DNA of 64,000 nt, from positions 1 to 64,000 of IMG/VR virus record IMGVR_UViG_3300032116_011488; one strand, written 5' to 3'. The notes beneath the pieces were generated by a model. It worked only from the letters and a program-made list of their open reading frames with translations. It had not been told where the DNA came from and did no database searches. The position numbers and the translations under genes were made by a program. Each line of letters begins with the position of its first letter. Position 1 is the stretch's first letter. Below are positions 28,399-64,000 of the stretch, one piece after another. Source of the stretch: a virus.

Positions 28399-28857
28399 AT
28401 GAGTGAAATAACATTCGAAACATTATTGGCAGCAGTAAATACTAACCCATCGGAATACGAAGAAAAGTATGTCCGATGGGTTTCTATTGGGTATGACAAA
28501 AAAGTTTTGGCAGAACTATTGTATGAATTACAATATCTGAAAGAGAAAGACGAATGGCCAGAACGAATTAAATTTTTAGAAGGTATTCTCGCCCAATATA
28601 ATCCACAACATTTATTGAATTTATTAAACGGTGAAACGCAAACGACACGATTTGCGTTAATTGAAAAGTGGTCACGTCAAGGGGCTATGGAAATACTCAT
28701 CTTTGATAAGTACAGTATCGATACATTAAATACTGTCACACAGTTTCCATTGGCAGATTATCAACTCTTTGTCAAACGAGTACAAGAAATTGTCACTATG
28801 ATTCGTGAAATCACCAGCCAAGCAGCAACATTAGCATCCGGAGTCGCCGGGCTATGA
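28399..28857 (+). CDS. Hypothetical helical protein at island start
   Basis: The 152-residue protein is helical and acidic, with Trp/Tyr-rich segments and no recognised motif or membrane segment. It is the first gene after the sigma70-like promoter, has a good ribosome-binding site (AAGGGG), and overlaps the glycosyltransferase gene by four bases (ATGA), so it may be made in step with it. I do not recognise the family. Confidence 0.65.
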   Translation: MSEITFETLLAAVNTNPSEYEEKYVRWVSIGYDKKVLAELLYELQYLKEKDEWPERIKFLEGILAQYNPQHLLNLLNGETQTTRFALIEKWSRQGAMEILIFDKYSIDTLNTVTQFPLADYQLFVKRVQEIVTMIREITSQAATLASGVAGL

Positions 28858-29552
28858 AGAACATCTACGACTTGACGATTTGGCAAACTAGACCTACAAA
28901 ATTAGCGATTCTTATTCCATGCAGAGAATCTGTATATAGTTTATTCACTGCGTCCTTAGTTGAGTTGGTCAAGACTACGACGATGGCAGGAATAGATGTT
29001 CATGTCATTTATGACCAAAGTACGATTTTACTCACACAACGAGAAAGATTGGCACAGCAAGCATTAGCGATGAAAGCAGATTATGCTCTGTGGTTGGACT
29101 CGGATATGATGTTCCCAAGCACCACCGCGATGCGTTTAATGGGACATAATGTTGATATCGTATGTTCCAACTATATGAAACGGTCGGTCCCACTTCAAAC
29201 AGTCGCATATCCAGAACGAGGAAACTGGGAAAACTGGTTACCACTAGAGGGTGACCAAGAACTGCAAGAAGTGGAAGGTGTGGGTATGGGATGTATGATG
29301 ATGAAAACCGAAGTACTGAACAAGCTGGTTCCTCCATATTTTGCCTTTGAATATAAGGACAAAGAATGGCACGGGGAAGATTTCTTTTTCCAGAGTAAAT
29401 TGCGCAAAGCAGGATATAAGATACTCGTAGATATGAATCTCAGTTTCCAAGTTCGCCATGTAGGACAATGGGCGTTTGGGCCAAGTATTGCTACTAATGA
29501 AGAACAACGAATTAAGAGACATACAAAAAAGGTAAAGAAAAATGCTGAATAA
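28854..29552 (+). CDS. GT-A-type glycosyltransferase
   Basis: The 232-residue protein has a Rossmann-like start (KLAILIPCRESVYSLFTASL), a QRERLAQQALAMKADYALWL block and a DSD metal/nucleotide-sugar motif (Asp82, Asp84) before MMFP, typical of GT-A glycosyltransferases of T4-like phages. A C-terminal WHGEDFFFQSKLRKAGYKI block carries the conserved acidic/aromatic acceptor-side motif. It should transfer a sugar from a nucleotide sugar to a glycan or other acceptor in the cytoplasm. The stop overlaps the next start by 11 bases. Confidence 0.8.
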   Translation: MKNIYDLTIWQTRPTKLAILIPCRESVYSLFTASLVELVKTTTMAGIDVHVIYDQSTILLTQRERLAQQALAMKADYALWLDSDMMFPSTTAMRLMGHNVDIVCSNYMKRSVPLQTVAYPERGNWENWLPLEGDQELQEVEGVGMGCMMMKTEVLNKLVPPYFAFEYKDKEWHGEDFFFQSKLRKAGYKILVDMNLSFQVRHVGQWAFGPSIATNEEQRIKRHTKKVKKNAE

Positions 29553-30651
29553 TGAGTCGTGGTTAGCACATAGTGATTTATTTAAAAAATATTGGGTAGT
29601 AGAAATTAAACCGTGGGTACGTAGTTTGGGTTGGTTTACTGACTATATGGAAACTGTAAAGGACGCAGATGGTTGGGCACAAGCAGGAGAAAAAGAATTA
29701 TCAGTATTTGATTATGTTCAGATTGTAGACCAACCGTTAGCTGAAAAGAAATTATATCGTTGTATTAATAGTGTTTCTTGGGAGCACATTTCTGGTCCTG
29801 TATTATTTGTCGTTCGTAAAGATAACGAGCAAGTGTTTATTGCAGGGTGGGCGGGAGAACGGAAGATTATTGAAAAGATGAAACAAGAAAGTGATGACCC
29901 ATGGCAATGGTCAGAAAAGATGATTGTCGAAGTTAATCCCGCATCTGCAATACGAACTGTGCCGACTGCAAAAAGACCAAAAGACAAAACTGTTCCTGTA
30001 TTTTTCGTCAGTAATGGGGAAAGTAATGCAGATGAAAATTGGAAGCATTTAACTAACTTATATCCACATGCAATTCGTATAGATGGAATAAATGGACGAA
30101 GAAAGATGTTTCATCGTTGTGTTGATTTAGCTAGGGACGCAAAGCAATTCTTTGTAATCACTGGCAAAAATTACATAACTGATTTAAATGTATTTAATTA
30201 TCCGGTTGAAACGGTTACAGATGCTCACATTATATTTCATGCAAAGAATATGAGTAATCGTTTGGAATATGGACATATGGGTATCGTCTGTTATAATAGC
30301 AATCTTGTACTGAATACTCCAAAAAACTTTGGATTGGATTTCACACAATTTAGTAAGACCGTTACTATTCCAATGACAGTCAGTGAAGCACACTTTGCAA
30401 CATCTCCGTTCGAAGCATGGAGAACTGCGTTCCGTGAAGCAGTTAAGTTATCTATGACACACACTCCAGATGCACATCTGTGGTTACAACGGTGGACTGC
30501 CTTTGCTGAAGGTCCAAACGCTAACTGGGTATTAAAGGGTACGGAAGACGGTATACAGTACGCAGAACAGTATGTAAAGAATCCAGATGAATTACAAAAA
30601 ACTGTGGATTGGAATTGGTTACAAGAAAAGTTTGAAGAGTTGCATGATTGA
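29542..30651 (+). CDS. Two-domain protein of conserved phage family, glycosyltransferase-associated
   Basis: The 369-residue protein has an N-terminal domain (about 1-140, Trp-rich) and a C-terminal domain beginning PVFFVSNGESNADENWKHLT. This continues through RIDGINGRRKMFHRCVDLAR, HIIFHAKNMSNRLEYGHMGI and FEAWRTAFREAVKL. The C-terminal domain resembles a family I have seen in cyanophage and other marine phage genomes next to glycosyltransferases. It looks like a nucleotide-sugar-transferase-type alpha/beta fold, but I cannot point to a DXD site. Role in glycan synthesis is inferred from neighbours. Confidence 0.6.
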   Translation: MLNNESWLAHSDLFKKYWVVEIKPWVRSLGWFTDYMETVKDADGWAQAGEKELSVFDYVQIVDQPLAEKKLYRCINSVSWEHISGPVLFVVRKDNEQVFIAGWAGERKIIEKMKQESDDPWQWSEKMIVEVNPASAIRTVPTAKRPKDKTVPVFFVSNGESNADENWKHLTNLYPHAIRIDGINGRRKMFHRCVDLARDAKQFFVITGKNYITDLNVFNYPVETVTDAHIIFHAKNMSNRLEYGHMGIVCYNSNLVLNTPKNFGLDFTQFSKTVTIPMTVSEAHFATSPFEAWRTAFREAVKLSMTHTPDAHLWLQRWTAFAEGPNANWVLKGTEDGIQYAEQYVKNPDELQKTVDWNWLQEKFEELHD

Positions 30652-30653
30652 CA

Positions 30654-31313
30654 ATGACAATAAATCCAAACAATTTAATTCCTATATCAACTATCAACGA
30701 TACGTTAATGATAAAGTCATCACGCGTTATTCAATGGATGACAACAATACGTGAATGTCCTCCTGGTGCACGTTATAGAATACTTGAAAATTTTTGGGAA
30801 AGTCAAATACGTAGTAAATGTTGGTTAGTGAATTCTATAAAAAAGCATTTGCCTGCATTAACTGGACGAGTTTATGTAATTGGCGGATGGTATGGAATAT
30901 TATCACAATTGATAGTAGATAATTTTCCTACTATAGTATATAATGTAGATATAGATGATAGTTGTATAAAGTATGGTAAACTACTTTCAAACGATGATTC
31001 TAGAATACAATTTATAACAAATGATATGGCAAAGTTCAACAAATATGTCGATGCCAAGTTGATAATCAATACTAGTACAGAACACGTTACGGAAGAAAAA
31101 TACAATGAGTGGTTTTCAGGATTACCAGAAAATGTACCTATTGTTGTTCAAGGAAATGATTTTCATGAATGCGAAGACCATATAAGAACTACAGAATCAT
31201 TAGATGAGTTTAATAGAGTTAGTTTATTAAGAACTATAATATATTCAGATAAAATAGAATGTCCGGGTGTAGGTAAACCATTTCACAGATTTATGACAAT
31301 AGGATATAAATAA
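30654..31313 (+). CDS. SAM-dependent methyltransferase-like protein
   Basis: The ATG at 30654 is chosen over an in-frame TTG at 30648. The 219-residue protein has a class I methyltransferase-like core: GRVYVIGGWYGILSQLIVDN as the glycine-rich SAM loop, YNVDIDDSCIKYGKLL as the acidic ribose-binding strand, and IQFITNDMAKF plus KLIINTSTEHVT as the later motifs. The GGWYG variant of the loop is typical of a phage family. The substrate is unknown; a sugar or glycan O-methylation role fits the neighbourhood. Confidence 0.72.
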   Translation: MTINPNNLIPISTINDTLMIKSSRVIQWMTTIRECPPGARYRILENFWESQIRSKCWLVNSIKKHLPALTGRVYVIGGWYGILSQLIVDNFPTIVYNVDIDDSCIKYGKLLSNDDSRIQFITNDMAKFNKYVDAKLIINTSTEHVTEEKYNEWFSGLPENVPIVVQGNDFHECEDHIRTTESLDEFNRVSLLRTIIYSDKIECPGVGKPFHRFMTIGYK

Positions 31314-31314
31314 T

Positions 31315-32727
31315 ATGAGCGCATCGGAGTTATTTAGAAGCACAAAAAGAAAACTGGACGTTATTAGTTCAACAATGTGTTTAGCAAAGTGGCAACAAGT
31401 TACAATTCATTTAGGTAACGGAACGACTCATAGCTGCCACCATCCTAGGGTTCATTTAATTCCTTTAGAAGAATTAGAAAATAATCCATCTGCTTTACAT
31501 AACACACAGTATAAAAAAGAATTAAGAAAGCAGATGTTAAATGGAGAACGTCCAGACGAATGTGATTATTGTTGGAGAGTAGAAGATAATCCACGTGGTG
31601 ATACGGATGGGGATGTATATAGTGACAGAATTGTGAAGAGTTCTGAAAATTGGGCTGCTCCGCACTATGACCAAGTTAAAAATATGCCGTGGAGCACCAA
31701 TATAAATCCATCATATATGGAAGTTGATTTCGATACTACTTGTAATTTTAAGTGTGCGTACTGTTCTCCGCTGTATTCTACTACGTGGATGCAAGAAATT
31801 AAACAACACGGTCCATATAAATTACCAACTATGGTCTTTAATAACATAGATCACTTAGAACGTGGTAAAGGATTACCTATTTTACAGTCTGAAGAAAATC
31901 CTTATATTGATGCGTTCTGGAAGTGGTGGCCTGATGCTGTACGTCACCTCCATACGTTTAGAATTACTGGTGGGGAACCACTACTAAGTAAGAATACATT
32001 TAAAGTTCTTGACTTCTTAATTGACAACCCACAACCACAGATGGAATTTAACATCAACAGTAATTTGGGTGCACCTAAGGAAATTGTAGATAAATTTATT
32101 GAAAAAATTGCAATCATACAAGACAAAAAGGCTGTCAAGGAATTTAAGCTATTTACTAGTAATGAAGCTCACGGCAAACGAGCAGAATATATTCGTTTTG
32201 GTTTAAACTACGATTACTGGTTAGGTAATGTGGACAGAGTTTTAAGCGAAGTGCCCGATAGTAAAGTCACTATGATGAGTACGTTTAATTTATTGTCTGT
32301 TACTTCTTACTTAGATTTCTTAAAGGATATGTTGGAATTGAAATTACGTTATTCACATCAAACAAAGAGACAAATACCATTAGCAGTAGACGTACCATAC
32401 CTAAGACATCCAGACTTTTTAGCAGCATGGGTGTTAACTGAGAATTATCTTGATTATATTGGAGAGTGTGTAACTTTCATGTATAGAAATCAAGAATTTG
32501 GCAGATGGTATCCGTTGGCTACCAAGGGATTCTTTGAACATGAAATTCACAGAATGGAACGGTTGTATTATTTAGTTTCTAAACAAATGGGAGTTAATAA
32601 ACCAGAAAACATAGAACAGAGAAGAAACTTTGGCCTATTCATTGATGAATATGATAAGCGTAGAGGAACAAATTTCACACAAACCTTTCCAGAATTAGAA
32701 GATTTTTACCGTTTCTGTAAGATTTGA
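31315..32727 (+). CDS. Radical SAM protein with twitch-type extension (1)
   Basis: The 470-residue protein carries the radical SAM cluster motif CNFKCAYC (Cys143, Cys147, Cys150) and the SAM-binding GGEPLL motif. Upstream, Cys41 (SCHHP) and the C83-x2-C86 pair resemble the auxiliary-cluster cysteines of twitch-domain radical SAM proteins, here placed N-terminal to the core. Such phage proteins are known but their substrates are not. Neighbours suggest chemistry on a sugar or a peptide-linked glycan. It begins two bases after the methyltransferase stop. Confidence 0.85.
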   Translation: MSASELFRSTKRKLDVISSTMCLAKWQQVTIHLGNGTTHSCHHPRVHLIPLEELENNPSALHNTQYKKELRKQMLNGERPDECDYCWRVEDNPRGDTDGDVYSDRIVKSSENWAAPHYDQVKNMPWSTNINPSYMEVDFDTTCNFKCAYCSPLYSTTWMQEIKQHGPYKLPTMVFNNIDHLERGKGLPILQSEENPYIDAFWKWWPDAVRHLHTFRITGGEPLLSKNTFKVLDFLIDNPQPQMEFNINSNLGAPKEIVDKFIEKIAIIQDKKAVKEFKLFTSNEAHGKRAEYIRFGLNYDYWLGNVDRVLSEVPDSKVTMMSTFNLLSVTSYLDFLKDMLELKLRYSHQTKRQIPLAVDVPYLRHPDFLAAWVLTENYLDYIGECVTFMYRNQEFGRWYPLATKGFFEHEIHRMERLYYLVSKQMGVNKPENIEQRRNFGLFIDEYDKRRGTNFTQTFPELEDFYRFCKI

Positions 32728-32728
32728 G

Positions 32729-34108
32729 ATGAAGAGAATAAATTTTTTGTATGAGTTTATAACACCGAACGGCGTATTACCGCTGGGATATCAAAAAACA
32801 GATCTTCCAATAATCTTTAGTGAAATTAATGAAGTATTAATAGGAGTAGACCACGCTACTATTAGAAGCGTGAATGCTCCTAAGTTTAGAGTGTCATCAC
32901 CAGCATATGATATTTTTGATATCATATCAGATTACTTTGAACCATATAAAGATATACGTAGAGTATTACTTAAAGATTTAAGTGAAGCAGAACTTAAAAA
33001 TGATTATAATATTTTTGCAATAACTAGTACACATGACCAATCTATTGTCGAGTACATATCTGGATTAGACTTTGATGATATGTTTACTAGTTCGGCGTTT
33101 TCATTACTTAAAAAGCATGATAGAGTAAAATTGGTGTTTATTGATAATAAAGAAGGCGGGTTTCAGTACCCAGATAAATTTTTTAAATCTATTCACACGT
33201 TTGTTGATAAGCATAAATTTAATAAAAACAAAATAATTTTTATAACTAATACTTCTAACATAAAAGAAATTTATGAAAATTATTTAAAAAAGTCACAATT
33301 ATATTCATTTATGATTTGTGAGTCCATTAACTTTTACATTAGTGGTGAACCTGGTAAAAATATTGTACGGTATGAAAACACCACTAAAAACTATCTAGTA
33401 GATAAGATAGTAGAACATGATATGGAGTATTCCTTGGATATGTCTCCATCAAGTAATCTACGCAATAAACACTTCTTATGTATGAACAGAAATAGTGGTA
33501 GACTGCATAGACCCAAATTAATATTAAAATTAATACAAGAAGGAATATTTGATAAAGGATTGTCGTCTTTATTAAGGTCCGACGAATTTAATAGATTCTG
33601 CGAAAAACCAGAAAATATAGATTATAAAACTAATATAAAAGAAAAGTATCCATTTGTGATAGATTATGAAAACGCAGATTATGTTGCGGGTATGCACAAT
33701 TATTTCACAAAAAAAGAAATGTGGAATGATACTTACTTCTCGATAGTAGCAGAAAGTTGTATAGAAACAGGTCCGGTGTTTATTACAGAAAAGGTAGTAA
33801 GACCTATGATATATTTTCATCCGTTTATAGTTTATGGTAATCCAAACACGTTGTCAGAACTACGTAAACTAGGATTTAAAACTTTCCCAGAATTTTTTGA
33901 TGAAAGTTATGATTTAATTGAGAACGAAGATGAACGTTTATCAATGATTGTAGAAAATATAAAGCGTATAAGTAATATGACATTGGAAGATGTACATAAG
34001 TTATATAACTCTGTATATCCAAAATTAGTCCACAACAGAAATTTGTTAGCTAAAATGGCAAAAGATAATTTTGTTGGTAACAAGTTTTTAGATACTATAA
34101 ATTTATGA
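32729..34108 (+). CDS. Exostosin-like glycosyltransferase family protein (1)
   Basis: The 459-residue protein is one of five relatives in the window. It carries the shared middle motif KHFLCMNRNSGRLHRPKLIL (about 250) and the shared C-terminal block VFITEKVVRPMIYFHPFIVY, then LGFKTFPEFFDESYD. This E-K-x(3)-P...PFI...GFKTF...DESYD arrangement resembles the donor-binding half of exostosin/GT10-like GT-B glycosyltransferases. The N-terminal half is poorly conserved and probably binds the acceptor. Base composition is very AT-rich. It overlaps the next paralogue by four bases. Confidence 0.68.
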   Translation: MKRINFLYEFITPNGVLPLGYQKTDLPIIFSEINEVLIGVDHATIRSVNAPKFRVSSPAYDIFDIISDYFEPYKDIRRVLLKDLSEAELKNDYNIFAITSTHDQSIVEYISGLDFDDMFTSSAFSLLKKHDRVKLVFIDNKEGGFQYPDKFFKSIHTFVDKHKFNKNKIIFITNTSNIKEIYENYLKKSQLYSFMICESINFYISGEPGKNIVRYENTTKNYLVDKIVEHDMEYSLDMSPSSNLRNKHFLCMNRNSGRLHRPKLILKLIQEGIFDKGLSSLLRSDEFNRFCEKPENIDYKTNIKEKYPFVIDYENADYVAGMHNYFTKKEMWNDTYFSIVAESCIETGPVFITEKVVRPMIYFHPFIVYGNPNTLSELRKLGFKTFPEFFDESYDLIENEDERLSMIVENIKRISNMTLEDVHKLYNSVYPKLVHNRNLLAKMAKDNFVGNKFLDTINL

Positions 34109-35538
34109 AAGACATTTTTTTAGTGCATGATTATATAACACCGTATGGTGAGTTGGAAAACGGTTTGAATTTTGATTATTTTTATTCTTATATTGAAAAG
34201 GATTTCAACAAATACCACGACATCATAGCCGATTTACAAAAAAAATATTACGATGGTGTCTCTGTATGGATTGGACAAGGTACTATCTCGTATGCAGTAA
34301 AGGAAGAACTATCCACATATGATGTATTTGCAAATAATCATAAAACCGATGGTGTGTATCTATATCCTATATCTCCATTTGGTGGAGCTAGTTGTGCGTT
34401 TGGAATAAACCATAGTTTACACCAGAACAGGTCATTTTTCTTTTTCATACCAGAGAAAACAAAATACTTAATTAGAACTTTAGAAAATTTCTACTTATTT
34501 ATAAATTATTCCAACGAAGGTACGTTGGATACTAATTTTTTTGAAGTAATATATAAAGATGCAGAAGAATTCAATATTCCGTTCGAAAAAATAATATTCT
34601 GTATATCTGATTATGATATAAAAATGAGTTTCGATGCTTGGTATCAAGGATATAAAAACAGACCAGATGTAAGTTCAAACATATCCAAAATCAAGATTTT
34701 GTATCACACATGGTCATTGAGAGACAAGGCAAAGGAGTTTAAAAAAATATTAAACAACGAGGCCACGGTATTTAATCACAATAAAAACAAATGTACAGTC
34801 GTAACAAAAGAAGAAGTTACAGACAAAATTGTTAGACAAAAACGATTTTTAATGTTGAATAGAAGATTAAGACCGCATAGGTTATACTCTATATTACTAT
34901 GCAGCCATTTGAATTTGCTAAACGAGTTTTATATTTCTTATGATTTAAACAATATGGAAGTGTTTGAATTAGAAAAATCAATGTATACAACCGACCATCT
35001 TAAAAATGAATTTCCATTTGAATTAGTAGAAGAAGAATACAAAAAATTAAAGATGACAGCTCCGGTTAGTACGCTAGATTTTAAAAATTTACAAGATGTG
35101 TGGGGATTTAATTTTGAAGATAAACGAATTTATCAGCAATCATACATACACATAACTTCGGAAACTAATTTTTTTGAAAATGGTGGATATTTTTCTGAAA
35201 AGACATGGAAACCCATCGGCCATCTCCAACCGTTCATTTTTCTTGGACCAGCAAATGGATTAAAAGAAATTAAAAAGTTAGGATTTAAAACATTTTCTCC
35301 ATTTATAGATGAAAGTTATGATGAAGAAAGAAATAATGCAAAACGATTTAAAATGATAATAAATGAAATAGAAAGATTAGCAAAATTGCCATTAGAAGAA
35401 ATTCATAATTGGTATCATTCTATTTTTGAAGATATTTTAATATATAATCAAGAGTTGTTTATACAATATGAAAATGATGACTTGATGAAAAATTTTTTCA
35501 CTAAAAATCTGTTTGAGGTCTTGGATGTTAACACCTAA
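34105..35538 (+). CDS. Exostosin-like glycosyltransferase family protein (2)
   Basis: The 477-residue paralogue of the preceding protein keeps the KRFLMLNRRLRPHRLYSILL motif and the C-terminal FSEKTWKPIGHLQPFIFLGP, then LGFKTFSPFIDESYD. The N-terminal half differs almost completely, so the two enzymes probably act on different acceptors with a similar donor site. It is very AT-rich. The tail overlaps the next start by 14 bases. Confidence 0.68.
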   Translation: MKDIFLVHDYITPYGELENGLNFDYFYSYIEKDFNKYHDIIADLQKKYYDGVSVWIGQGTISYAVKEELSTYDVFANNHKTDGVYLYPISPFGGASCAFGINHSLHQNRSFFFFIPEKTKYLIRTLENFYLFINYSNEGTLDTNFFEVIYKDAEEFNIPFEKIIFCISDYDIKMSFDAWYQGYKNRPDVSSNISKIKILYHTWSLRDKAKEFKKILNNEATVFNHNKNKCTVVTKEEVTDKIVRQKRFLMLNRRLRPHRLYSILLCSHLNLLNEFYISYDLNNMEVFELEKSMYTTDHLKNEFPFELVEEEYKKLKMTAPVSTLDFKNLQDVWGFNFEDKRIYQQSYIHITSETNFFENGGYFSEKTWKPIGHLQPFIFLGPANGLKEIKKLGFKTFSPFIDESYDEERNNAKRFKMIINEIERLAKLPLEEIHNWYHSIFEDILIYNQELFIQYENDDLMKNFFTKNLFEVLDVNT

Positions 35539-36532
35539 TGTAAATAATGAATGGGGACAACTTAAAAAAATAATACTGGGAAGTTCTTTCGGTGCGCAAA
35601 TTCCTACTACGAAGGATAAAGGACTGCATTGTGTAGATTACGCTCATTATACTGATGAAGAGTTTTCTACAATACCAACTGGTTCATATCCATTACAAGT
35701 CTTAGAAGAAACACAACAAGACTTAATGCAGATAGAACAAATTTTAACTGGATTGGGAGTCGAGGTATATCGTCCACCCTCTATTCCGAAAAATAGACCA
35801 TTTAATGACTCGTATTATGATTATTGTCCACGGGATTCTATGTTGGTAATTAAAGATAAAGTTATAGCTACTCCTATGACATTACGTCAACGAAGAGATG
35901 AAGCGGACAAATACAGACAACTATTTACGCCGGAAAGTTGGGTAACCTTTCCAAAACCAGTTGCAGATGATAGCTTATATGACCGTAGTGATTTGTCGAG
36001 AAGTACGTTGATGAATACTGAGCCCGTATTTGATGCAGCAAACGTACTTAAAGCAAACTATGATTTATTATACTTGGTATCAAATACTGGAAACAAGGCT
36101 GGAGCTGAATATTTACAAAATTGGTTACACGACAACATATCAGAACACTATAGAGTACATCTTGCAGAGAATATATACGCATATATTCATATAGACACCA
36201 CGTTTGTTTTCTTACGAGAGGGGTTGGTATTGACAAACCCAGCTAGAGTTAATGTAAACAACATGCCAGATTTTCTAAGAAGATGGGATGTATTAAATGC
36301 ATCGGAACCATATCCGACTCAAGTTATGTCAGATTGGTGTCCGGCGTCACCGTGGTTAGGTATGAATATTTTGTCTATTAATGAAAAACTGGTTATGGTA
36401 GAAGAACACCAGATTATGTTAATGAAAATGTTAAAAAAGTTTGGAATTGAGTCAATACCAGTTAAATTACGCCACGCAAGAACATTAAGCGGCGGTCCTC
36501 ACTGTATTACATTGGATATTGAAAGAGAGTAA
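35525..36532 (+). CDS. Amidinotransferase (AGAT/StrB-type)
   Basis: The start is the ATG at 35525, with GAGG seven bases upstream; an in-frame TTG exists at 35513. The 335-residue protein belongs to the guanidino-modifying (GME) superfamily, closest in layout to glycine or inosamine amidinotransferases. The catalytic features are in order: CPRDSMLV (Asp104), EPVFDAANV (Asp170), HIDTTFVFL (His222, Asp224) and SGGPHCITLDI with the nucleophile Cys327 near the C terminus. These enzymes move an amidino group from arginine to an amine. Here the acceptor could be an amino sugar or a small amine; StrB-type enzymes act on aminocyclitols. Confidence 0.85.
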   Translation: MLTPNVNNEWGQLKKIILGSSFGAQIPTTKDKGLHCVDYAHYTDEEFSTIPTGSYPLQVLEETQQDLMQIEQILTGLGVEVYRPPSIPKNRPFNDSYYDYCPRDSMLVIKDKVIATPMTLRQRRDEADKYRQLFTPESWVTFPKPVADDSLYDRSDLSRSTLMNTEPVFDAANVLKANYDLLYLVSNTGNKAGAEYLQNWLHDNISEHYRVHLAENIYAYIHIDTTFVFLREGLVLTNPARVNVNNMPDFLRRWDVLNASEPYPTQVMSDWCPASPWLGMNILSINEKLVMVEEHQIMLMKMLKKFGIESIPVKLRHARTLSGGPHCITLDIERE

Positions 36533-36536
36533 CCCC

Positions 36537-36565
36537 TTGACATATTTACAAAAAAGTATTATAAT
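36537..36565 (+). promoter_or_regulatory. Consensus sigma70 promoter
   Basis: TTGACA (36537-36542), a 17-base spacer and TATAAT (36560-36565) form a perfect consensus bacterial promoter in the 61-base gap before the PhyH-like gene. It begins five bases after the amidinotransferase stop. AAGGAGGGT follows as a strong ribosome-binding site. It should be read by host RNA polymerase early in infection. Confidence 0.88.
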
Positions 36566-36593
36566 TAATTAACCTTTAAGGAGGGTAAGTGTT

Positions 36594-37376: not shown

Positions 37377-37377
37377 A

Positions 37378-38346: not shown

Positions 38347-38347
38347 T

Positions 38348-42863: not shown

Positions 42864-42864
42864 T

Positions 42865-45025: not shown

Positions 45026-45028
45026 GTT

Positions 45029-46524: not shown

Positions 46525-46525
46525 T

Positions 46526-47395: not shown

Positions 47396-47408
47396 GAGAA
47401 ATAGTATT

Positions 47409-47537: not shown

Positions 47538-47543
47538 TATTAC

Positions 47544-48797: not shown

Positions 48798-48803
48798 AAC
48801 AAA

Positions 48804-51850: not shown

Positions 51851-51851
51851 T

Positions 51852-54196: not shown

Positions 54197-54205
54197 GGAA
54201 GTGTT

Positions 54206-54610: not shown

Positions 54611-54611
54611 C

Positions 54612-56290: not shown

Positions 56291-56490
56291 TAGAAACTAA
56301 GAAAAGAACTATGTTTAAAACTATTAGTTGGAGATTGGTTGCGATATTAAATTCATTTTTAATTTTAACTATGAACCTAACTACAAACAATTTACTCAAT
56401 GCGATATACATGAATATTACTGGGTTTTTTGTTTTCTATTTTTTTGAAAGAGTTTGGGCCAATATACAATATGGGAGATACATAGAGTGA
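56281..56490 (+). CDS. DUF2061 small membrane protein (1)
   Basis: The ATG at 56281 lies inside the end of the previous gene; an in-frame TTG exists at 56269. The 69-residue product has the DUF2061 layout: a basic start (ETKKRTMFKTISWRLVAILN), two hydrophobic segments (about 19-37 and 43-58), and an FFERVWANIQYG end matching the family's HERVW motif. The membrane topology is a short hairpin. The family role is unknown. A second copy lies at 62798-63019. Confidence 0.78.
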   Translation: MGVIETKKRTMFKTISWRLVAILNSFLILTMNLTTNNLLNAIYMNITGFFVFYFFERVWANIQYGRYIE

Positions 56491-57686
56491 TATATGTTTT
56501 GGATATAGATGGTTGGCCGTTCGATTCACAGTGGCCCAGTAATAAGGAACCATTTCAATATGTAACATTAGAATACTTTATTAAAGATTTTTTGTTTAAA
56601 GGGAAACAAATTGCGGTACATAAAATAGAAGGCAATAACAAAATTTCCCCAGAGGCTGTAGATAAAATACTGACAGAAAATACAGATATTAAAGTATTTG
56701 CCTGTAATTTAGATGCATTTGAAGACAAGCAGTCATTATTATTATATGATGAACAACTTTGTCAAAAATATCCGAACGTATTTTTTATATTTTTTTACCA
56801 CGAATTAGATTTTACATTTTTAGTAGACTCGACTAGCAAAGGTATAAAAAATATAAGTTATGTCGTTAATTCGTTCACTACAAATGATTATGAAGAACTT
56901 AATAAAAAGATATTTCCATACTATGTTATAAATTCCTACCTACAGAAAAATTATGAATCGATGTACAGAATGTACCATCCGAACTATAATCTAAGAAAAA
57001 TTAAGAAATTTAATTTTCTAAATGGCATACATAAACCGCATAGATTAGCTGCGTACGAATTGATAAAAACGCATAATATGTTAGATGATGGTTTCTTTTC
57101 TTATTTAGATTACACAAAATTTTTAAAGAATGACCAACACAAAGAAACAACAGCTAACTGGTTGGACATAACCATAGAAGAACTAGAAACCAGATTATCT
57201 AACCTTGAAGTTCCTTATTTGTTAGAAACATACGAACCAAAGAACCAACCTGGGGTATTTGCTGCACCGTTCTTAATTCCCTTTATATATTCTTGGCAAA
57301 GTTATATTTCGATTACATCTGAAACAAATTATATAGAACGTACAAACGTGGTATCCTTATCAGAAAAATCATTTAAAGCATTCGCTGGGTTTAATATTCC
57401 ATTGATATATGGACAACCCAATCTAGTTGAATATTTAAAAAAGTTAGGATTTGATATGTTCGATGATTTATTTGATAACACTGTTGTAAACAGCAAAGCA
57501 GAAACATTAAGTAAACTGGATAGAAATTTACAAGTTATTAAAAATATGTCGTTAGAAGAATTACACAATTTCTATGTAAAAAATTACAATAGGGTACAAA
57601 ATAATTTTTATAATCTAATTTACAAAATAAAAGATAGACACTTTAACCAAATTCAACAAAATGTTAATGAAATATTCAATAAGTGA
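56487..57686 (+). CDS. Exostosin-like glycosyltransferase family protein (4)
   Basis: The GTG at 56487 overlaps the upstream TGA and is the most plausible start; an upstream in-frame TTG lies inside the DUF2061 gene. The 399-residue paralogue has FNFLNGIHKPHRLAAYELIK, ISITSETNYIE, SLSEKSFKAFAGFNIPLIYG and a diverged LGFDMFDDLFDNTV in place of GFKTF...DESYD. A charged helical tail follows. It overlaps the aminotransferase gene by 26 bases. Confidence 0.66.
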   Translation: MIYVLDIDGWPFDSQWPSNKEPFQYVTLEYFIKDFLFKGKQIAVHKIEGNNKISPEAVDKILTENTDIKVFACNLDAFEDKQSLLLYDEQLCQKYPNVFFIFFYHELDFTFLVDSTSKGIKNISYVVNSFTTNDYEELNKKIFPYYVINSYLQKNYESMYRMYHPNYNLRKIKKFNFLNGIHKPHRLAAYELIKTHNMLDDGFFSYLDYTKFLKNDQHKETTANWLDITIEELETRLSNLEVPYLLETYEPKNQPGVFAAPFLIPFIYSWQSYISITSETNYIERTNVVSLSEKSFKAFAGFNIPLIYGQPNLVEYLKKLGFDMFDDLFDNTVVNSKAETLSKLDRNLQVIKNMSLEELHNFYVKNYNRVQNNFYNLIYKIKDRHFNQIQQNVNEIFNK

Positions 57687-58293
57687 TTCGTGGGACTGGG
57701 TTACACATTTTGAAAATACTATAGCAGAGTATTGTGGGTCACGGTATGCAGTTGCGTGTGATTCCAACACCAATGCAATACGACTTGTATTACACTATCT
57801 GGGTATACAAAATCAACGCATACATATTCCGGCGAGAACATATGTGTCTGTACCGAACCAAATTATACTATCAGGAAATACACCAGTATTCGTAGATATT
57901 GATTGGCAAGGGTTGTACAATATTGGAAATACTTCTATTGTTGATGCGGCTACCGCATTTTATAAGGGAATGTACCAAGAAAAGTATACCATATTATCTT
58001 TTCATCTTAAGAAAATTTTGAACATCGGAACGGGTGGTATGATTCTGACCAACGATAAAGAGTTTGAACAATGGGCACGCCCTATGATTTATGATGGTAG
58101 ACATAAGAACAAAATGTACGTTGATGACCAATTTGAGTGTGTAGGTTGGCATATGTATATGACTCCAGAACAAGCCAAGCGTGGATTAGAAATATTTCAT
58201 TCCGACAAAATTAAAGATTGGAACTCTCCGTGTGGTGGAAGTTGGTTATACAAAGATTTACGAGAACAAAATGTTTTTAAGAGTTACGTATGA
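57661..58293 (+). CDS. Compact DegT/DnrJ/EryC1 sugar aminotransferase
   Basis: The 210-residue protein keeps the PLP core of the DegT family: YAVACDSNTNAIRLVLHYLG (phosphate-binding region), IHIPARTYVSVPNQIILSGN, VFVDID, IVDAATAFYKG with Asp95, and SFHLKKILNIGTGGMILT, where Lys118 matches the PLP-binding lysine. Typical members have 360-400 residues; here the C-terminal small domain is largely missing. Such enzymes add an amino group to keto sugars, which would suit the amidinotransferase and carbamoyltransferase nearby. A second ATG at 57667 is an alternative start. Confidence 0.8.
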   Translation: MLMKYSISDSWDWVTHFENTIAEYCGSRYAVACDSNTNAIRLVLHYLGIQNQRIHIPARTYVSVPNQIILSGNTPVFVDIDWQGLYNIGNTSIVDAATAFYKGMYQEKYTILSFHLKKILNIGTGGMILTNDKEFEQWARPMIYDGRHKNKMYVDDQFECVGWHMYMTPEQAKRGLEIFHSDKIKDWNSPCGGSWLYKDLREQNVFKSYV

Positions 58294-58637: not shown

Positions 58638-58638
58638 T

Positions 58639-59343
58639 ATGAAACAAAAACTATTTCATTATGGGTGTTCGTTCACAGAAAACATTCGTTCATTTAAACT
58701 ACATAACTTGTTTACGGACAAGTATGATTATCATAATCACGGTTTAGCTAGTTCCGGTAACGGATTGATTTTTGATACTTTTAAGAAAACCGCAGAATCA
58801 GATTCTATAGCTATTTTACAGTGGTCATCTCTTACTCGTCCTCGGGATGAAAATTATAAAATATTAGAAACGTCTGATAATCCATTGTATGATTATTTGG
58901 AAGAATGGTATGGTACCTTATCCGAAGCAAGAGAATTTTCCAATAAAAATAATATAAAACTAGTACAGTATATTGGATGGGCTGAGTGGAAGGACTCTGA
59001 GTTAAACGATTATCATAGAAATAAACTTCAATCGTTTGGTATACATTGGTTTAAGTCTAAAAAGCAGTGGGACATAATTGCATCAAATTGTTTTCAATTT
59101 GAGGATCCTTACGAATGGAGTTCTCCTCCCAGACAGTTACCAGATGGAGAATATTTCCTTTGGTCAGATATAGAATGGGGCGGCATGAGTGAATGGATTA
59201 GATCAAATATAGAGATACACGATAGATATAGGGGATGGACGGATGACACAGTTGCGGGAACCACATATTATGACCCGCACCCATCGGAGTATGCTAGTAT
59301 TCAGTTTATAAAGGAATTTTTATTAAAAACATTGGAAATGTAA
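58639..59343 (+). CDS. SGNH-hydrolase-like protein (7)
   Basis: The 234-residue protein has LFHYGCSFTENIR with Ser11, NHGLASSGNGLI (Gly/Asn block), IAILQWSSLTRPR, and a C-terminal YYDPHPSEYASIQF with Asp-x-His. This is one of the clearest SGNH layouts in the window. It starts one base after the membrane-protein gene. Confidence 0.78.
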   Translation: MKQKLFHYGCSFTENIRSFKLHNLFTDKYDYHNHGLASSGNGLIFDTFKKTAESDSIAILQWSSLTRPRDENYKILETSDNPLYDYLEEWYGTLSEAREFSNKNNIKLVQYIGWAEWKDSELNDYHRNKLQSFGIHWFKSKKQWDIIASNCFQFEDPYEWSSPPRQLPDGEYFLWSDIEWGGMSEWIRSNIEIHDRYRGWTDDTVAGTTYYDPHPSEYASIQFIKEFLLKTLEM

Positions 59344-59344
59344 G

Positions 59345-60142
59345 ATGAAAACTATACTTTCTATTGGTTGTTCTTATGCTCTTGATTTAAATCAACACTA
59401 TAAAAAAACTAGTACGCTTAGATTTTCATATGATGGTGCCTCGATAGAAACAATACTGGAAATGGTTAAGTATTTAGAAAGTACGGAAGAGCACTCAACT
59501 GAAAATTGGGTTGTGGGTATAACTCAAATAGGTAGATTGAATAAACAAATTCCAAAAGGATTAGAATGGCAATCTCCAACATTAATAAAACCTAGAAATT
59601 TATTTTTCGACAAAGACCATAAATGGTGTTTTTTCTCGGAAGGACAAGAAGAAAAAGAAATGTCCTCTAATTTTTCATCAGAGTGGTGGAAAACCGAACA
59701 TATCTCACACGTTTCCAAGCCAATAGAAGAACACATTAGAAATTATCTGAATGCTATTGTTGAAATACAAAATATTTTGAAAGATAAAAAATTTGTAATG
59801 TTTTTGATGAATAATACATTAGATGGTTGGGTTTATAAAAAAGATGGTAGATTATCACATATATATTCTGAATATAAAGGTTTCGACATACCAGAATTTA
59901 ATGACACATTCACATTAGAAAAGATATGTCCCAGAGAGTGGTCTAATATAGATTTTAGTAAATTTTGTTTGTATGAACACATGCAAAGTAAGTTTGGTGG
60001 GCTTGATGAATACACTATACACAAGTATGGAGTAAATCATTTTGGTACGTATCAATCGGCGGATAAAAATGTATTTGGACAACATCCTATACACGAAGCA
60101 CAATGGAATTTTTTCAATGAGGTCATAAAACACAGATTATGA
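59345..60142 (+). CDS. SGNH-hydrolase-like protein (8)
   Basis: The 265-residue protein has TILSIGCSYALDLNQ with Ser10, FSYDGASIETI as a weak second block, VVGITQIGRLN and a C-terminal VFGQHPIHEAQWNFF. The fold is likely SGNH, but the oxyanion residues are less clear than in its relatives, so it may be inactive or altered. It overlaps the 2OG-oxygenase gene by four bases. Confidence 0.66.
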   Translation: MKTILSIGCSYALDLNQHYKKTSTLRFSYDGASIETILEMVKYLESTEEHSTENWVVGITQIGRLNKQIPKGLEWQSPTLIKPRNLFFDKDHKWCFFSEGQEEKEMSSNFSSEWWKTEHISHVSKPIEEHIRNYLNAIVEIQNILKDKKFVMFLMNNTLDGWVYKKDGRLSHIYSEYKGFDIPEFNDTFTLEKICPREWSNIDFSKFCLYEHMQSKFGGLDEYTIHKYGVNHFGTYQSADKNVFGQHPIHEAQWNFFNEVIKHRL

Positions 60143-60924
60143 TAAATAAAAAAACAGAATGGGATTTTAATAAATCCGAATATGGATTTGGCAGAACTAA
60201 AATTGATAATTTCTTGGACGAAAACACCGTTCGGGCTTTATATGAAGAATGTGTAAACGCACCAAAGGGCGGATGGACTGTGTTTACTCGCGCGGGTTCT
60301 CGTATGGAAGAGTTTAACGACTTGATTTCTTTACCGACCGCACACAGGATTACATATGATATTATGCACTCCGGTGAGTTCTTATATGAACTAGAACAAA
60401 TGACTGGTATCGTTGGATTACTACCAGACCCACATTTAGTTGGTTCGGGATATTCGATTATCAGAAATGGTAACACACTTGGGTGCCATTACGACTTTAA
60501 CTGGAATGACCGTATCCGATTACATAGAAAATTGACATCATTGTTGTACATTACCCCAGACTGGCAAGACGAATGGGGTGGACATATTCAATATTATGAT
60601 GATAATATAGATGTTAATCCGAACGCAAAACTAATTGAATCGGTGGCACCAAGATTTAATAGATTTGTTATCAACGAGAATATTAAGCACGGACCATATC
60701 ACAGAGTAAGTGCGGTAAATGCACCAGATGATATTGGTCGGTGTGCTATCAGGTTCTTCTATTATATCAGTACTTCTGATCCAGATAAAGACAATCCACC
60801 ACACAGAAGTACTTATAAATCCAACGAATATTCACATCACAAGCTATATGAAGAAGAAACTTGGGATGGGCATTTCGTAGGAAATGGCGGGGAAGACTAC
60901 GGATATAACCACACGAATAAATAA
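60139..60924 (+). CDS. 2-oxoglutarate/Fe(II) oxygenase, prolyl-hydroxylase type
   Basis: The 261-residue protein has the P4H-type facial triad: GCHYDFNWNDR with His117 and Asp119, distal His188 in GPYHRVSAV and the 2-oxoglutarate-binding Arg205 in RCAIRFFYY. LTSLLYITPDWQDEWGGHIQ is the typical strand before the insert. It should hydroxylate an amino-acid side chain or a small molecule. Prolyl-type hydroxylases can prepare residues for glycosylation, which may matter here but is speculation. Confidence 0.85.
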   Translation: MINKKTEWDFNKSEYGFGRTKIDNFLDENTVRALYEECVNAPKGGWTVFTRAGSRMEEFNDLISLPTAHRITYDIMHSGEFLYELEQMTGIVGLLPDPHLVGSGYSIIRNGNTLGCHYDFNWNDRIRLHRKLTSLLYITPDWQDEWGGHIQYYDDNIDVNPNAKLIESVAPRFNRFVINENIKHGPYHRVSAVNAPDDIGRCAIRFFYYISTSDPDKDNPPHRSTYKSNEYSHHKLYEEETWDGHFVGNGGEDYGYNHTNK

Positions 60925-61571
60925 TGTATTGTGTTTTCCACTTACCGAGAACAGGCTCAAGATATTTACACAGTTTAATTAATAGTAGCTTGTCATATCT
61001 TGACCCAAGACACATAGGTACACATTTAGAACCATTCAATCCTGAGTTCAACACTTTAAATGATATTGAACATAAGTTTGAAGAGTTCACTAATAACGAA
61101 CCACCGACAACCGTGAAAATGGTTATCAATCATTATCCGTGGTTAGCGGATAAATTCATACAGCACCAAAAATACACTACGATTTTTATAAAACCTTTAA
61201 ATTATAGAAAACGTTTATTGAAAGCACTGGTAGAAAAACATTTCAGAACATACAGTAACGGAACGAATAGAAAGGATGTAAGAGAGCCATTTGTGGGTAA
61301 ATTAAAGTTTTCTGATGAATTAATAGAAGAACGTTTTTTTCATTACAAACTTCATATGGAATATGAAACACGATGCGACTATGTTTTTTATGATGAGTAT
61401 TTATTCACGCATACAACTGACGTATTAACTAAATTGAATTTACCATTAGTTACTACAAGATATAAACGGGTGGCACCATACTATTCAGATGAAGATATGC
61501 TAGAAAATATTGATGAGTTCAACAAACAATACGATAAACTTAGTGTAAAAATTTTTGGATATGTTGTATGA
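60924..61571 (+). CDS. Sulfotransferase-like protein (1)
   Basis: The 215-residue protein begins MYCVFHLPRTGSRYLHSLIN; PRTGS (8-12) is the 5'-phosphosulfate-binding loop pattern of PAPS-dependent sulfotransferases. The rest is compact, with FIKPLNYRKRLLKALVEKHF resembling the R-kkk 3'-phosphate region, and a C-terminal SDEDMLENIDEFNKQYDKL. The family is short compared with cellular sulfotransferases (about 260-300 aa). A paralogue lies at 62166. The TAATG overlap links it to the oxygenase gene. Confidence 0.68.
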   Translation: MYCVFHLPRTGSRYLHSLINSSLSYLDPRHIGTHLEPFNPEFNTLNDIEHKFEEFTNNEPPTTVKMVINHYPWLADKFIQHQKYTTIFIKPLNYRKRLLKALVEKHFRTYSNGTNRKDVREPFVGKLKFSDELIEERFFHYKLHMEYETRCDYVFYDEYLFTHTTDVLTKLNLPLVTTRYKRVAPYYSDEDMLENIDEFNKQYDKLSVKIFGYVV

Positions 61572-62149
61572 TAACAAATGAATTGTTAAAAATAGAACGT
61601 ATCAAACCTACTGATATGGTAGGTATAATGTTGTCTGGTGGAATGGATAGTGCATTATTATTATATCTACTAGCTAAAAATTTAACTAATCAAATAATTC
61701 CGTTCACTGTTCCAAAAACAGATGGTGCGAAACATTACGTCGTACCGATTGTTACGTGGGTAAATAATAAACTAAATAAAAACATACCAGAACCACAGTT
61801 GATAGGAAATCCATCAGTATATCATTCTCAAATAATAAACCATTCTTTAAAGGAAATAGAAGAAATGTACGATGTTTTATACTTTGCAGGAAATTCATAT
61901 CCAGAAAATATATTGCCTGGCGGACCCAATCGTACTAAAAGAACAAATTCCAAACATTTACAACCATTTTTTGAGTTATATAAAACAGATATCTTACGAG
62001 GATATATAACTTATGATATAATGGATTTAATATTACTAACTCATACGTGCACAGAATTAGAATATGGTAGATGTAATGTCTGTTGGCAATGCAAGGAAAG
62101 AGAATGGGCCTTCAAAGAACTAGATATATTAGACAGAGGGATACAATGA
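61568..62149 (+). CDS. PP-loop ATPase, QueC-like
   Basis: The 193-residue protein has GIMLSGGMDSALLLYLLA (PP-loop SGGxDS, Ser23 to Ser28) and a C-terminal CTELEYGRCNVCWQC arrangement, C-x7-C-x2-C-x2-C, followed by KEREWAF, as in the zinc site of QueC (7-cyano-7-deazaguanine synthase). No QueD, QueE or FolE is visible here, so it may have another ATP-dependent amidation or ligation role, like the amidotransferases of amino-sugar pathways. It lies between two sulfotransferase-like genes. Confidence 0.78.
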   Translation: MITNELLKIERIKPTDMVGIMLSGGMDSALLLYLLAKNLTNQIIPFTVPKTDGAKHYVVPIVTWVNNKLNKNIPEPQLIGNPSVYHSQIINHSLKEIEEMYDVLYFAGNSYPENILPGGPNRTKRTNSKHLQPFFELYKTDILRGYITYDIMDLILLTHTCTELEYGRCNVCWQCKEREWAFKELDILDRGIQ

Positions 62150-62165
62150 TAATAGAGATATTAAT

Positions 62166-62801
62166 ATGTATTGTATAGTTGCATTACCTAAAACTGCTTC
62201 TACACTTACATGGCACATAATTGATGACGCACTGAAACGAAATAATTTAAACTGTGATTACGGAGATATAGAACCATTTAATCCATATAATAAAAATTAT
62301 ACACCTAGATTAGAAAACCAAGAAATTATTTATCAACGTTTGTTGATTAGTAAACCGTTACCATTGATAAAATTATTAACTAACTATAACTACAATATAT
62401 TTAATTGGTTTAATAATTCACCGTATCAATTGATTTTTTTAAAACCAAAAAACATTAGAAAACAAATACTTGGTTCATTAATAGGCAACGTGACAAAAAA
62501 TTATTTTGGTATAAGAGAAGAACGATTGGAGTTGAAAGGTAAGTTAAAATTTGAAAGATATAAAATAGAACAAAAAGTGTTCGCATACAAAAAACATATG
62601 AGACTAGAACGATTCTGTAAATACAGTTTTTACGATACAGAAATCATAACCAATCCAAATTATTTATTAGAAACTTTAAAGTTACACAAAACAGAAACAG
62701 TATATAATAATTACACACTACCAATTATCAGCGATGATGATATGTTAGAAGATATTGATGAGTTTAATAAACTATATGAGGAGTGTATTAATACATTATG
62801 A
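62166..62801 (+). CDS. Sulfotransferase-like protein (2)
   Basis: The 211-residue paralogue of the protein at 60924 begins MYCIVALPKTASTLTWHIID, with PKTAS (8-12) as the phosphate-binding loop. It has FLKPKNIRKQILGSLIGNVT and ends SDDDMLEDIDEFNKLYEEC, almost the same C-terminal motif as its relative. The flanking AT-rich sequence and divergence suggest an old duplication. A sulfuryl-transfer role is inferred from the loop and the APS-kinase domain gene downstream. Confidence 0.68.
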   Translation: MYCIVALPKTASTLTWHIIDDALKRNNLNCDYGDIEPFNPYNKNYTPRLENQEIIYQRLLISKPLPLIKLLTNYNYNIFNWFNNSPYQLIFLKPKNIRKQILGSLIGNVTKNYFGIREERLELKGKLKFERYKIEQKVFAYKKHMRLERFCKYSFYDTEIITNPNYLLETLKLHKTETVYNNYTLPIISDDDMLEDIDEFNKLYEECINTL

Positions 62802-63019
62802 CAGTTCATATAAAAAGACATATTGCAAAAGCAATTACATATAGAATAGTAGGTACCTTGACAACATTTATTATTTCGTATATATTTACGGGTAGTATAT
62901 CTCTATCATCCGCGATAGGGGCCACAGAATTAATAGTCAAACCCGTCAATTATTTTTTACACGAACGGGCGTGGTATAAGTGGATTAAATTTGGTCTTAC
63001 TAATAAGAACGAGGAATAA
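62798..63019 (+). CDS. DUF2061 small membrane protein (2)
   Basis: The 73-residue protein is a clear DUF2061 member: HIAKAITYRIVGTLTTFIIS, a second hydrophobic segment (SAIGATELIVKPVNYFL) and HERAWYKWIKFG. It is closer to the family pattern than the copy at 56281. Both sit downstream of sugar-modification genes. The function of the family is not known; two short membrane helices suggest a membrane-anchored helper. Confidence 0.85.
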   Translation: MTVHIKRHIAKAITYRIVGTLTTFIISYIFTGSISLSSAIGATELIVKPVNYFLHERAWYKWIKFGLTNKNEE

Positions 63020-63022
63020 TAT

Positions 63023-63787
63023 ATGAGAATTTTGGTTATGGGATTGCCTGGGTCTGGAAAGACTACATTATCTAAGGTATTGGCGGAAAAGTTAGATGCC
63101 GCTTACTTCAATGCAGACGAAGTACGGAAACAGTTCAACGATTGGGACTTTTCTGAAACTGGTCGTAAACGTCAAGCATATCGGATGCGGGAACTTTGTG
63201 ATATGTCAGAAACGTATCATACGGTGGCAGATTTTGTCTGTCCCACAGAAGAAACCCGTGAACTCTTCTTACCAGATTTTATTGTGTTTATGAATACAAT
63301 AGATGCTGGGAGATTTGAGGATACCAATAGAGTGTTTGAGGTACCCGAAAAGGTAAATGTATTGGTGAATGGATGGATAGACACAAATACACAAGCAGAT
63401 ATTATCATTGAACAAATCAAGAAAGTGGACGTACATTTTGGTTGGCAGAATCCTACGGGACTGATGATTGGTCGGTTCCAACCATTCCACGATGGGCACT
63501 TGAAGTTATTTGAGACTATCTTGGAGAAGGAAGGTCAGGTACTTATTGCGGTCAGAGACACCTATAATACCGACGAAAAGAACCCATTCAATTATGTGGA
63601 GGTTATCGAAGGAATCCACAAGAAGCTGGAAAATAAGTACCGTGGAAAATACTATATAATGTCTGTCCCGAATATCACTGGGGTCTATTATGGTCGGGAT
63701 GTGGGATATAAAGTCGAGAAAATCAATCTGGACCCACAAACTGAATCGATTTCTGCTACCCAAATTCGGAAGGAAATGGGGAAGTAA
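63023..63787 (+). CDS. Fusion: APS-kinase-like domain plus HxGH nucleotidyltransferase
   Basis: The 254-residue protein has two domains. Residues 1 to about 135 are APS-kinase-like: GLPGSGKTT P-loop (7-15), YFNADEVRKQFNDWDFSETG, which parallels the DGDNVR...FSEEDR block of CysC, and WIDTNTQADIIIEQI at its end. Residues about 140-254 are a nucleotidyltransferase: MIGRFQPFHDGHLKLFE (HxGH) and SISATQIRKEM (ISATxIR), as in NMN adenylyltransferases and related enzymes. It is not a classical ATP sulfurylase. The kinase half could supply PAPS for the sulfotransferase-like proteins; alternatively both halves act on a nicotinamide- or nucleotide-type substrate. Confidence 0.82.
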   Translation: MRILVMGLPGSGKTTLSKVLAEKLDAAYFNADEVRKQFNDWDFSETGRKRQAYRMRELCDMSETYHTVADFVCPTEETRELFLPDFIVFMNTIDAGRFEDTNRVFEVPEKVNVLVNGWIDTNTQADIIIEQIKKVDVHFGWQNPTGLMIGRFQPFHDGHLKLFETILEKEGQVLIAVRDTYNTDEKNPFNYVEVIEGIHKKLENKYRGKYYIMSVPNITGVYYGRDVGYKVEKINLDPQTESISATQIRKEMGK

Positions 63788-63802
63788 ACGATATTTATTA
63801 GT

Positions 63803-64000
63803 ATGCAAGTAAATGTACCTGCGAATTGTGAAAGAATAAATGTTTTGTTTTCTGGAGGGGCAGATAGTTCACTATTGGCGTATCTGTTGATAAAGCAAAA
63901 TACTGATATACCGATAGTTCTTCATTTTATGAAACATAGGCTGGATTTTCAGAGTCCACACATGACTAACTGCCACAATTGGTTAGAACGACATTTTAAT
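63803..64000 (+). CDS. PP-loop ATPase, N-terminal part (runs off the window)
   Basis: An ATG at 63803 opens a frame that is still open at base 64000 (66 residues). NVLFSGGADSSLLAYLLIKQ contains a PP-loop SGGxDS, similar to the QueC-like protein at 61568. It may be its paralogue. The C-terminal zinc motif, if any, lies outside the window. Confidence 0.75.
   Translation, partial: MQVNVPANCERINVLFSGGADSSLLAYLLIKQNTDIPIVLHFMKHRLDFQSPHMTNCHNWLERHFN

Follow-up and report, generated by a model that had tools for sequence, protein, structure and literature searches.

The DNA considered here, hereafter the window, comprises bases 1–64,000 of a 73,316-base IMG/VR record (IMGVR_UViG_3300032116_011488) from an uncultured T4-like freshwater phage, and it carries, directly behind its tail fibre genes, a long operon of sugar- and group-transfer genes that we call the island. 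The left half of the window is a T4-like structural cassette in which portal, protease, major capsid protein, head-tail adaptor, sheath and tube were recognised with PHROG profiles. The fibres have a gp14-type gene (12,876) and the tube gene (16,426) on their left and the island on their right. The capsid protein shares 54% identity with that of Flavobacterium phage immuto and 51% with that of Microcystis phage Mel-JY01, and no island of comparable kind was found in the annotated stretches of these two phages that were inspected. A further viral contig (G001) is 100% identical across window positions 16,730–64,000 and carries the same virus further rightward. The island overruns the window, with sugar-type genes up to ~67,990 of the record, followed by a further gene block and a helicase.

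Gene content of the island

Between 28,399 and 63,787 lie 40 open reading frames (ORFs), all on the plus strand and named here by their start positions. Their junctions overlap or have gaps of ≤10 nt in 35 of 39 cases, confirming a preliminary description of about 36 kb of tightly coupled genes, and gaps longer than 50 nt occur at three places only (after 36,532, 47,395 and 56,290). The GC content is 0.28–0.39 in the island versus 0.42–0.47 in the fibre genes. The same description listed many sugar- and group-transfer enzymes, and about 20 of these are backed by Pfam and NCBIfam profiles, while no profile support was found for its sulfotransferase (60924, 62166) and methyltransferase (30648) labels and its SGNH proteins are identified by motif only. 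Its glycosyltransferases stand in the case of 28854, but a five-member family of GT-B-fold proteins, termed here the D family, had not been separated out.

The variable island starts with gene 30648 (30,648–31,313), which looks methyltransferase-like by eye and has no Pfam or PHROG hit. It is followed by a twitch-type radical S-adenosylmethionine (SAM) enzyme (N_Twi_rSAM; 31,315–32,727; NF033640, 1.2e-95). After two D-family genes come 35513, of the arginine-deiminase/amidinotransferase superfamily, and the PhyH oxygenase 36594 (35,513–37,376; PF02274, 3.2e-5, and PF05721, 3.3e-19). Sugar-nucleotide-type enzymes include a short-chain dehydrogenase/reductase (SDR) epimerase, 37327, with the RmlC gene 38282 (37,327–38,899; PF01370, 3e-31, and PF00908, 4e-33), and an E1-alpha-like subunit of a thiamine pyrophosphate (TPP)-dependent enzyme, 39599 (39,599–40,231; PF00676, 5e-16; TIGR03182, 5e-26). 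Two further SDR enzymes, 44027 and 45029, stand beside an E1-beta-like subunit (PYR half), 45964 (44,027–46,524; PF01370, 1e-38 and 1e-44; PF02779, 1e-6). Between these groups lie a radical SAM enzyme (40236), a HAD phosphatase (41432) and gene 41862, which has no assigned function (40,236–42,863). Further right are a carbamoyltransferase with both of its domains (52562, in 51,831–54,196; PF02543, 2.6e-60, and PF16861, 3.8e-58), a 134-aa four-helix protein without assigned function (54206; 54,206–54,610; 17 relatives, model with a predicted local distance difference test score, pLDDT, of 78), a short DegT-type aminotransferase (57,661–58,293; PF01041, 2.6e-24) and a 2-oxoglutarate-Fe(II) oxygenase (60,139–60,924; PF13640, 1.5e-12). 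The last group (60,924–63,787) holds a related P-loop-like pair (60924, 62166), a QueC-like PP-loop gene (61568), a DUF2061 gene (62798) and a kinase plus nucleotidyltransferase gene (63023), and is also found in G023 and G076.

Nine SGNH-like proteins are spread through the operon: 38899; 46526 and 48804 (46,526–49,742, flanking the radical SAM/SPASM gene 47544; PF13186, 9e-8); the N-terminal half of 49739; 51831, ahead of the carbamoyltransferase; 54612 and 55544 (54,612–56,290); and 58639 and 59345 (58,639–60,142). The block I GxS motif lies close to the N-terminus in all nine, and a simple pattern finds the C-terminal HP motif in six. No SGNH-superfamily profile matched any of them in Pfam and PHROG searches.

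A predicted GT-B-fold family

The D family consists of 32729 and 34105 (32,729–35,538), 42850 (42,850–44,052), 56454 (56,454–57,686) and the C-terminal half of 49739 (49,739–51,850), whose N-terminal half is an SGNH-like domain with a GSS motif. The family profile match of this last member was made on the same ORF in the identical contig G001, in a 707-aa frame. Membership of 56454 follows from alignment, and that of 32729, 34105 and 42850 is additionally supported by model and Foldseek. An AlphaFold2 model built from 47 family sequences reaches pLDDT 91, and its best Foldseek matches in the PDB are GT-B glycosyltransferases (trehalose-6-phosphate synthase at E 2.6e-5, SenB and others; probability 1.0). 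The predicted fold resembles that of these enzymes, whereas identity to them is only 8–10%, the template modelling score is ~0.4, and no Pfam family matched. No meaningful match was found in Pfam or PHROG or, by sequence, in the PDB, and none at all among 50,697 deposited phage records, while IMG/VR viral contigs hold 410 relatives; the family is uncatalogued and new here. Viral structure matches include one protein annotated as UDP-glucose/GDP-mannose dehydrogenase. From the model, we regard the D family as predicted GT-B-fold proteins and putative glycosyltransferases. The D domain shares an ORF with an epimerase domain in related phages and with an SGNH-like domain in this one.

Two other placements of the family gained no support. 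Membership in the GT10 fucosyltransferases rested on an SEK-type motif that is a look-alike by eye, and six records searched with PF00852 at E 10 gave no hit. A cellular origin was confirmed in none of 84,980 genomes, searched non-exhaustively with a single peptide pattern. One contig filed as a Pelagibacterales metagenome-assembled genome (L399, VHCC01000006.1) has the phage-type island order, an E1-alpha gene 80% identical, the D family and core genes at 54%–80%, and is probably a misbinned phage contig.

A conserved sugar core and fast-changing transferases

Across D-family neighbourhoods one set of genes recurs in order: 54206, the SDR enzymes, RmlC, the TPP E1-alpha gene (39599) and the E1-beta-like gene (45964). 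The most conserved island gene is 54206, with 64–85% identity in 17 relatives; between phages it is better conserved (65–84% across D-family neighbourhoods) than the capsid protein, the SDR and TPP genes are always alongside, and no PDB match was found for it by fold or by sequence. Gene 39599 is 70–80% identical among phage islands. Median identities to the sister genome G003 are 92% for donor-synthesis and tailoring genes versus 65% for GT-B and 55% for SGNH genes, and those to G002 are 86% versus 61% and 35%. The difference between gene classes gives rank-test p values of 6e-6 (G003) and 5e-4 (G002), with genes not found set at 20% identity, a choice that affects the exact p. In G017, which keeps the layout and has capsid and helicase identities of 91% and 93%, the island genes proper are mostly 25–83% identical. 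Gene 38899 is absent from all sister genomes, and blocks come and go between sisters.

The sugar-synthesis genes are thus far better conserved than the GT-B and SGNH genes, which is new here, and a supply of sugars that stays fixed while linkages and decorations change would fit this pattern. As an inference, the earlier proposal that the genes make one complex glycan is well supported by the conserved core order, by the ORFs that GT-B, SGNH and epimerase domains share and by co-inheritance in the sisters. Adjacent E1-alpha and E1-beta genes also occur in SAR11 and other marine single-cell and metagenome genomes (L400–L405), in loci with polytopic membrane proteins, and the sugar core may have come from such cellular loci.

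Tail fibres and the fibre-linked trio

Two tail fibre genes on the plus strand precede the island. The first (21,008–25,867) encodes Gly-x-x (GSSGTSG; hereafter GST) tracts of 210 triplets by sequence count, and the second (25,938–28,139; PHROG tail fibre, 6e-39) has tracts totalling 79 triplets, with a domain of fibre chaperone type at its C-terminus. The Ser/Thr-dense tracts noticed earlier are real: together the two fibres have 289 triplets and 521 Ser/Thr, with 0 Pro. A 58-aa ORF between the second fibre and the operon promoter (28,152–28,328), shorter than the ORF size cut-off applied, might encode a small fibre-tip protein.

Behind the fibres come 28399 (28,399–28,857; 152 aa, without assigned function, without a Pfam or PHROG match and with none in deposited phages), the GT-A-like glycosyltransferase 28854GT (28,854–29,552; LDSDM and GED motifs; PHROG glycosyltransferases; an Anp1 match at 5.8e-6, just short of the Pfam cut-off) and 29542 (29,542–30,651; also unassigned). 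In most of the 80 loci with 28854GT it follows 28399, behind fibres with or without an island, and island genes are undetected in 32 of the 65 loci having sufficient downstream sequence. Gene 29542 accompanies 28854GT in close relatives even where the island is missing. These three genes are better read as a fibre-linked trio apart from the island proper. A Gly-x-x tract lies ≤5 kb upstream in 27 of 64 carriers of 28854GT, versus 4 of 135 background tiles. Among carriers with a GST tract the island is present in 18 of 18, versus 4 of 23 without one (Fisher 5e-8), a raw value that ignores ancestry, the tract label needing about five changes on the GT tree. A tract-specific role for 28854GT was rejected as a general rule: 37 of the 64 upstream stretches have no tract, including those of relatives ~80% identical.

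In 16 of 22 records, which are not independent, the island has a fibre or virion gene on its 5′ side. In the window, G002, G003, G017, G074, G021, G014, G009, G012, G013, G087, G082 and G099 that gene encodes a fibre; in G015, G020 and G028 it encodes a virion structural protein. No recognised virion gene was found 5′ of the island in G016, G019, G098 and G092, and the set also takes in G010, which gave no call.

Membrane proteins and transcription signals

Among 1,331 ORFs surrounding D-family genes in 77 loci, not one has five or more hydrophobic segments, and no flippase, polymerase, ligase, initiating membrane transferase or gtrABC-like gene was found close to the family in these loci. The only membrane-type proteins in the island are 58290 and the DUF2061 protein 62798. 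A signal-peptide-like N-terminus is missing from the island genes, SGNH included, except for one small membrane protein. The lack of polytopic ORFs disfavours both a gtrABC cassette and a system that would export surface polysaccharide on its own; because polytopic proteins are seldom encoded by phages, it is supportive rather than decisive.

A sigma-70-like promoter (TTGACA-N17-TATATT; 28,338–28,366, plus strand) precedes 28399 in four genomes (the window, G003, G002 and G017), its hexamers kept while the spacer drifts. A perfect internal one (TTGACA-N17-TATAAT; 36,537–36,565, plus strand), also present in G003, lies ahead of the PhyH gene 36594. Consensus promoter matches overall are not commoner than in shuffles, so the promoter assignment rests on these two best sites and their conservation; judged from the sequence, the operon probably starts from a host-type promoter. 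A promoter of the TTGACA/TATAAT type speaks against a host among the Bacteroidota, although a Flavobacterium phage has the nearest capsid protein. A different, conserved motif of TATTTAT type stands at several structural genes (gp13, tube, 18487, 25938) and at a gene at 68,275, and is a candidate late promoter of this phage group. Its sites are at 5348, 11231, 16389, 18451 and 25902 of the window and in L001 (record 68239), and several are kept in sister genomes.

Comparison with known systems

The host recognition cluster of pelagimyophages and cyanomyophages (PMC7029224) is likewise a large, non-syntenic island of the structural region, with tail fibres, several glycosyltransferases, sugar synthesis and radical SAM cassettes; here too, tail fibres and glycan genes share one large, variable stretch among structural genes. 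The literature found on glycan islands of freshwater phages comprised this paper, one on aquatic jumbo phages and reviews. That cluster sits between VrlC and gp14, whereas this island lies behind fibres that come after gp19. In deposited phages no close match was found for the GT-B, SGNH, 54206 and split TPP core genes, and only distant carbamoyltransferase and TPP genes appeared. The island is a hypervariable glycan cluster of a generally known kind, built from other families than the pelagimyophage cluster. In Synechococcus phage S-SM2, a sugar cluster with epimerases and glycosyltransferases includes a TPP gene ('transketolase central region') that shares 44% identity with 39599, but the cluster contains GT11 and GT25 families, has no D family and lies near nrd and tRNA genes instead of behind fibres. 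Unlike this island, gtrABC-type serotype-conversion cassettes have a membrane flippase and membrane glycosyltransferases.

Modification of virions by viral sugar enzymes has precedents. Mycobacteriophage virions are glycosylated by phage enzymes (Freeman 2023, as cited in PMC11256854 and PMC12619734), and phage-encoded glycosyltransferases of predicted activity are present here too (28854GT and the GT-B family). The mycobacteriophage system uses a few glycosyltransferases on capsid or tail tube targets and has no large sugar-synthesis island, while the virion glycan considered here is a proposed one. Mimivirus encodes collagen glucosylation, and in giant-virus collagen-like glycoproteins and the spore exosporium, Gly-x-x repeat proteins are modified by their own sugar enzymes (PMC9614988); these enzymes and hosts are unrelated to those of this phage, making the likeness one of mechanism, not of kinship.

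A proposed role and its rivals

We propose, at a probability of about 0.45, that the island is a cytosolic phage glycan assembly whose likeliest acceptor is a virion tail fibre. The core (SDR enzymes, RmlC, the split TPP enzyme and helical 54206) would make one or more unusual nucleotide sugars, which the radical SAM, oxygenase, carbamoyl-, amidino- and aminotransferase-type enzymes would tailor. The five GT-B enzymes and 28854GT would build the glycan, the SGNH proteins would add or remove acyl groups, and the tail fibre would be the acceptor, preferably at its GST tracts if it has them. Of these steps the acceptor is the most conjectural. Fibre glycosylation is favoured because a fibre or virion gene so often stands 5′ of the island and the 28399–28854GT pair lies behind fibres, because a GST tract implies the island among 28854GT carriers (in the raw count), because neighbouring ORFs include no polytopic proteins and the island genes, with one exception, no signal-peptide-like N-termini, and because the predicted GT-B domains are joined to SGNH or epimerase domains while donor genes are conserved and transferases change fast.

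Several observations weigh against this assignment. The operon's promoter is sigma-70-like rather than of the structural-gene type. In G076/G077 the island is at least 31 kb away from the fibre trio. The island also stands behind fibres lacking a GST tract in G021, G014, G009, G012 and G099. A search by the tract alone found 34 long contigs, mostly fragments; 33 of them have no D family and 25 no SDR epimerase at all. The tract-bearing relatives without an island that were named beforehand as grounds for doubt thus do occur, and these base rates rule out the tract as the island's constant partner. The suggestion that the tract is the acceptor is partly supported, as within this clade the island comes after tract fibres; in the expected conservation of tract and island as neighbours, the fibre side stands and the tract side does not. 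Tract, GT and island travel together in this group, while elsewhere the tract needs no island and the island no GST tract; the recurring partner of the island is the fibre locus. That aquatic T4-like phages of a widespread group possess a self-contained cytosolic O-glycosylation of fibres, run by the uncatalogued GT-B family and the TPP/SDR/54206 core, with GST tracts as acceptors and a fast-changing sugar coat on the receptor-binding apparatus, is a more tentative idea.

A host lipopolysaccharide or capsule target, named from the start as the chief alternative, stays a close rival and is quite possible: phage sugars and transferases would act on a cytosolic lipid-linked precursor that host machinery then exports, remodelling the host surface glycan during infection for receptor masking or superinfection exclusion. 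It matches the published reading of the pelagimyophage cluster (PMC7029224) and the hypervariability of the island. Cellular loci with the same E1 pair, many from SAR11 and other uncultured lineages, have polytopic membrane proteins in 10 of 22 cases and so resemble surface-polysaccharide loci. With a host-type promoter, the enzymes might be expressed early to reach a host target, or be stocked ahead of fibre synthesis. Against a host target stand the missing export and gtrABC-like genes, which the host could supply, the SGNH genes without signal peptides and the position behind fibres in most records. Turnover between sister genomes, the presence and absence of blocks and the loss of 38899 from every sister would also suit a plastic cargo zone gathering unrelated metabolic genes behind the fibres with no single pathway, but the conserved core order, the high identity of core genes between closest sisters and the near-gapless operon make this unlikely. 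Glycosylation of phage DNA bases as an anti-restriction device, by GT-B enzymes like the T4 glucosyltransferases, is very improbable. The GT-B fold would allow it, and virus-encoded glycan hypermodification of DNA is known (Pyle 2024, as cited in PMC12619734), but the dCMP hydroxymethylase of T4-type glucosylation (thymidylate synthase/dCMP hydroxymethylase, PF00303) was found in none of the 14 island-bearing records, which may be incomplete (13 are 127–257 kb long), although other modification routes are conceivable, and neither the fibre-locus position nor the many tailoring and SGNH proteins, superfluous for DNA modification, suit this role.

To our knowledge, the glycan islands of large aquatic phages have usually been taken, without proof, as host-surface modifiers; new here are the lack of polytopic proteins near the genes, the fibre or virion gene that recurs 5′ of the island and the 28399–28854GT pair after fibres. 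The defined conserved core, the uncatalogued glycosyltransferase family and the recurring place behind different fibres yield concrete, separable predictions for virion and host around named genes (28854, 54206, the GT-B family and the split TPP enzyme). If the fibres are glycosylated, phage host range and recognition evasion would involve fibre chemistry as well as sequence.

Neighbouring genes

At the right end of the island the DUF2061 membrane protein adjoins the kinase plus nucleotidyltransferase gene, which has weak adenylylsulfate-kinase similarity (62,798–63,787), and a link to sulfate activation may exist. A subtilisin-like protease gene follows beside a QueC-like PP-loop gene (L001:9394–10893, record 64,393–65,892), and the protease also occurs in G003, G002, G017, G023 and G076 (41–46%). 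Multidomain proteins of 1,835–1,999 aa with an N-terminal nucleotidyltransferase domain lie between island and terminase in G021 (L289:12376–17883) and G008 (L292), with shorter kin in G014 and G009.

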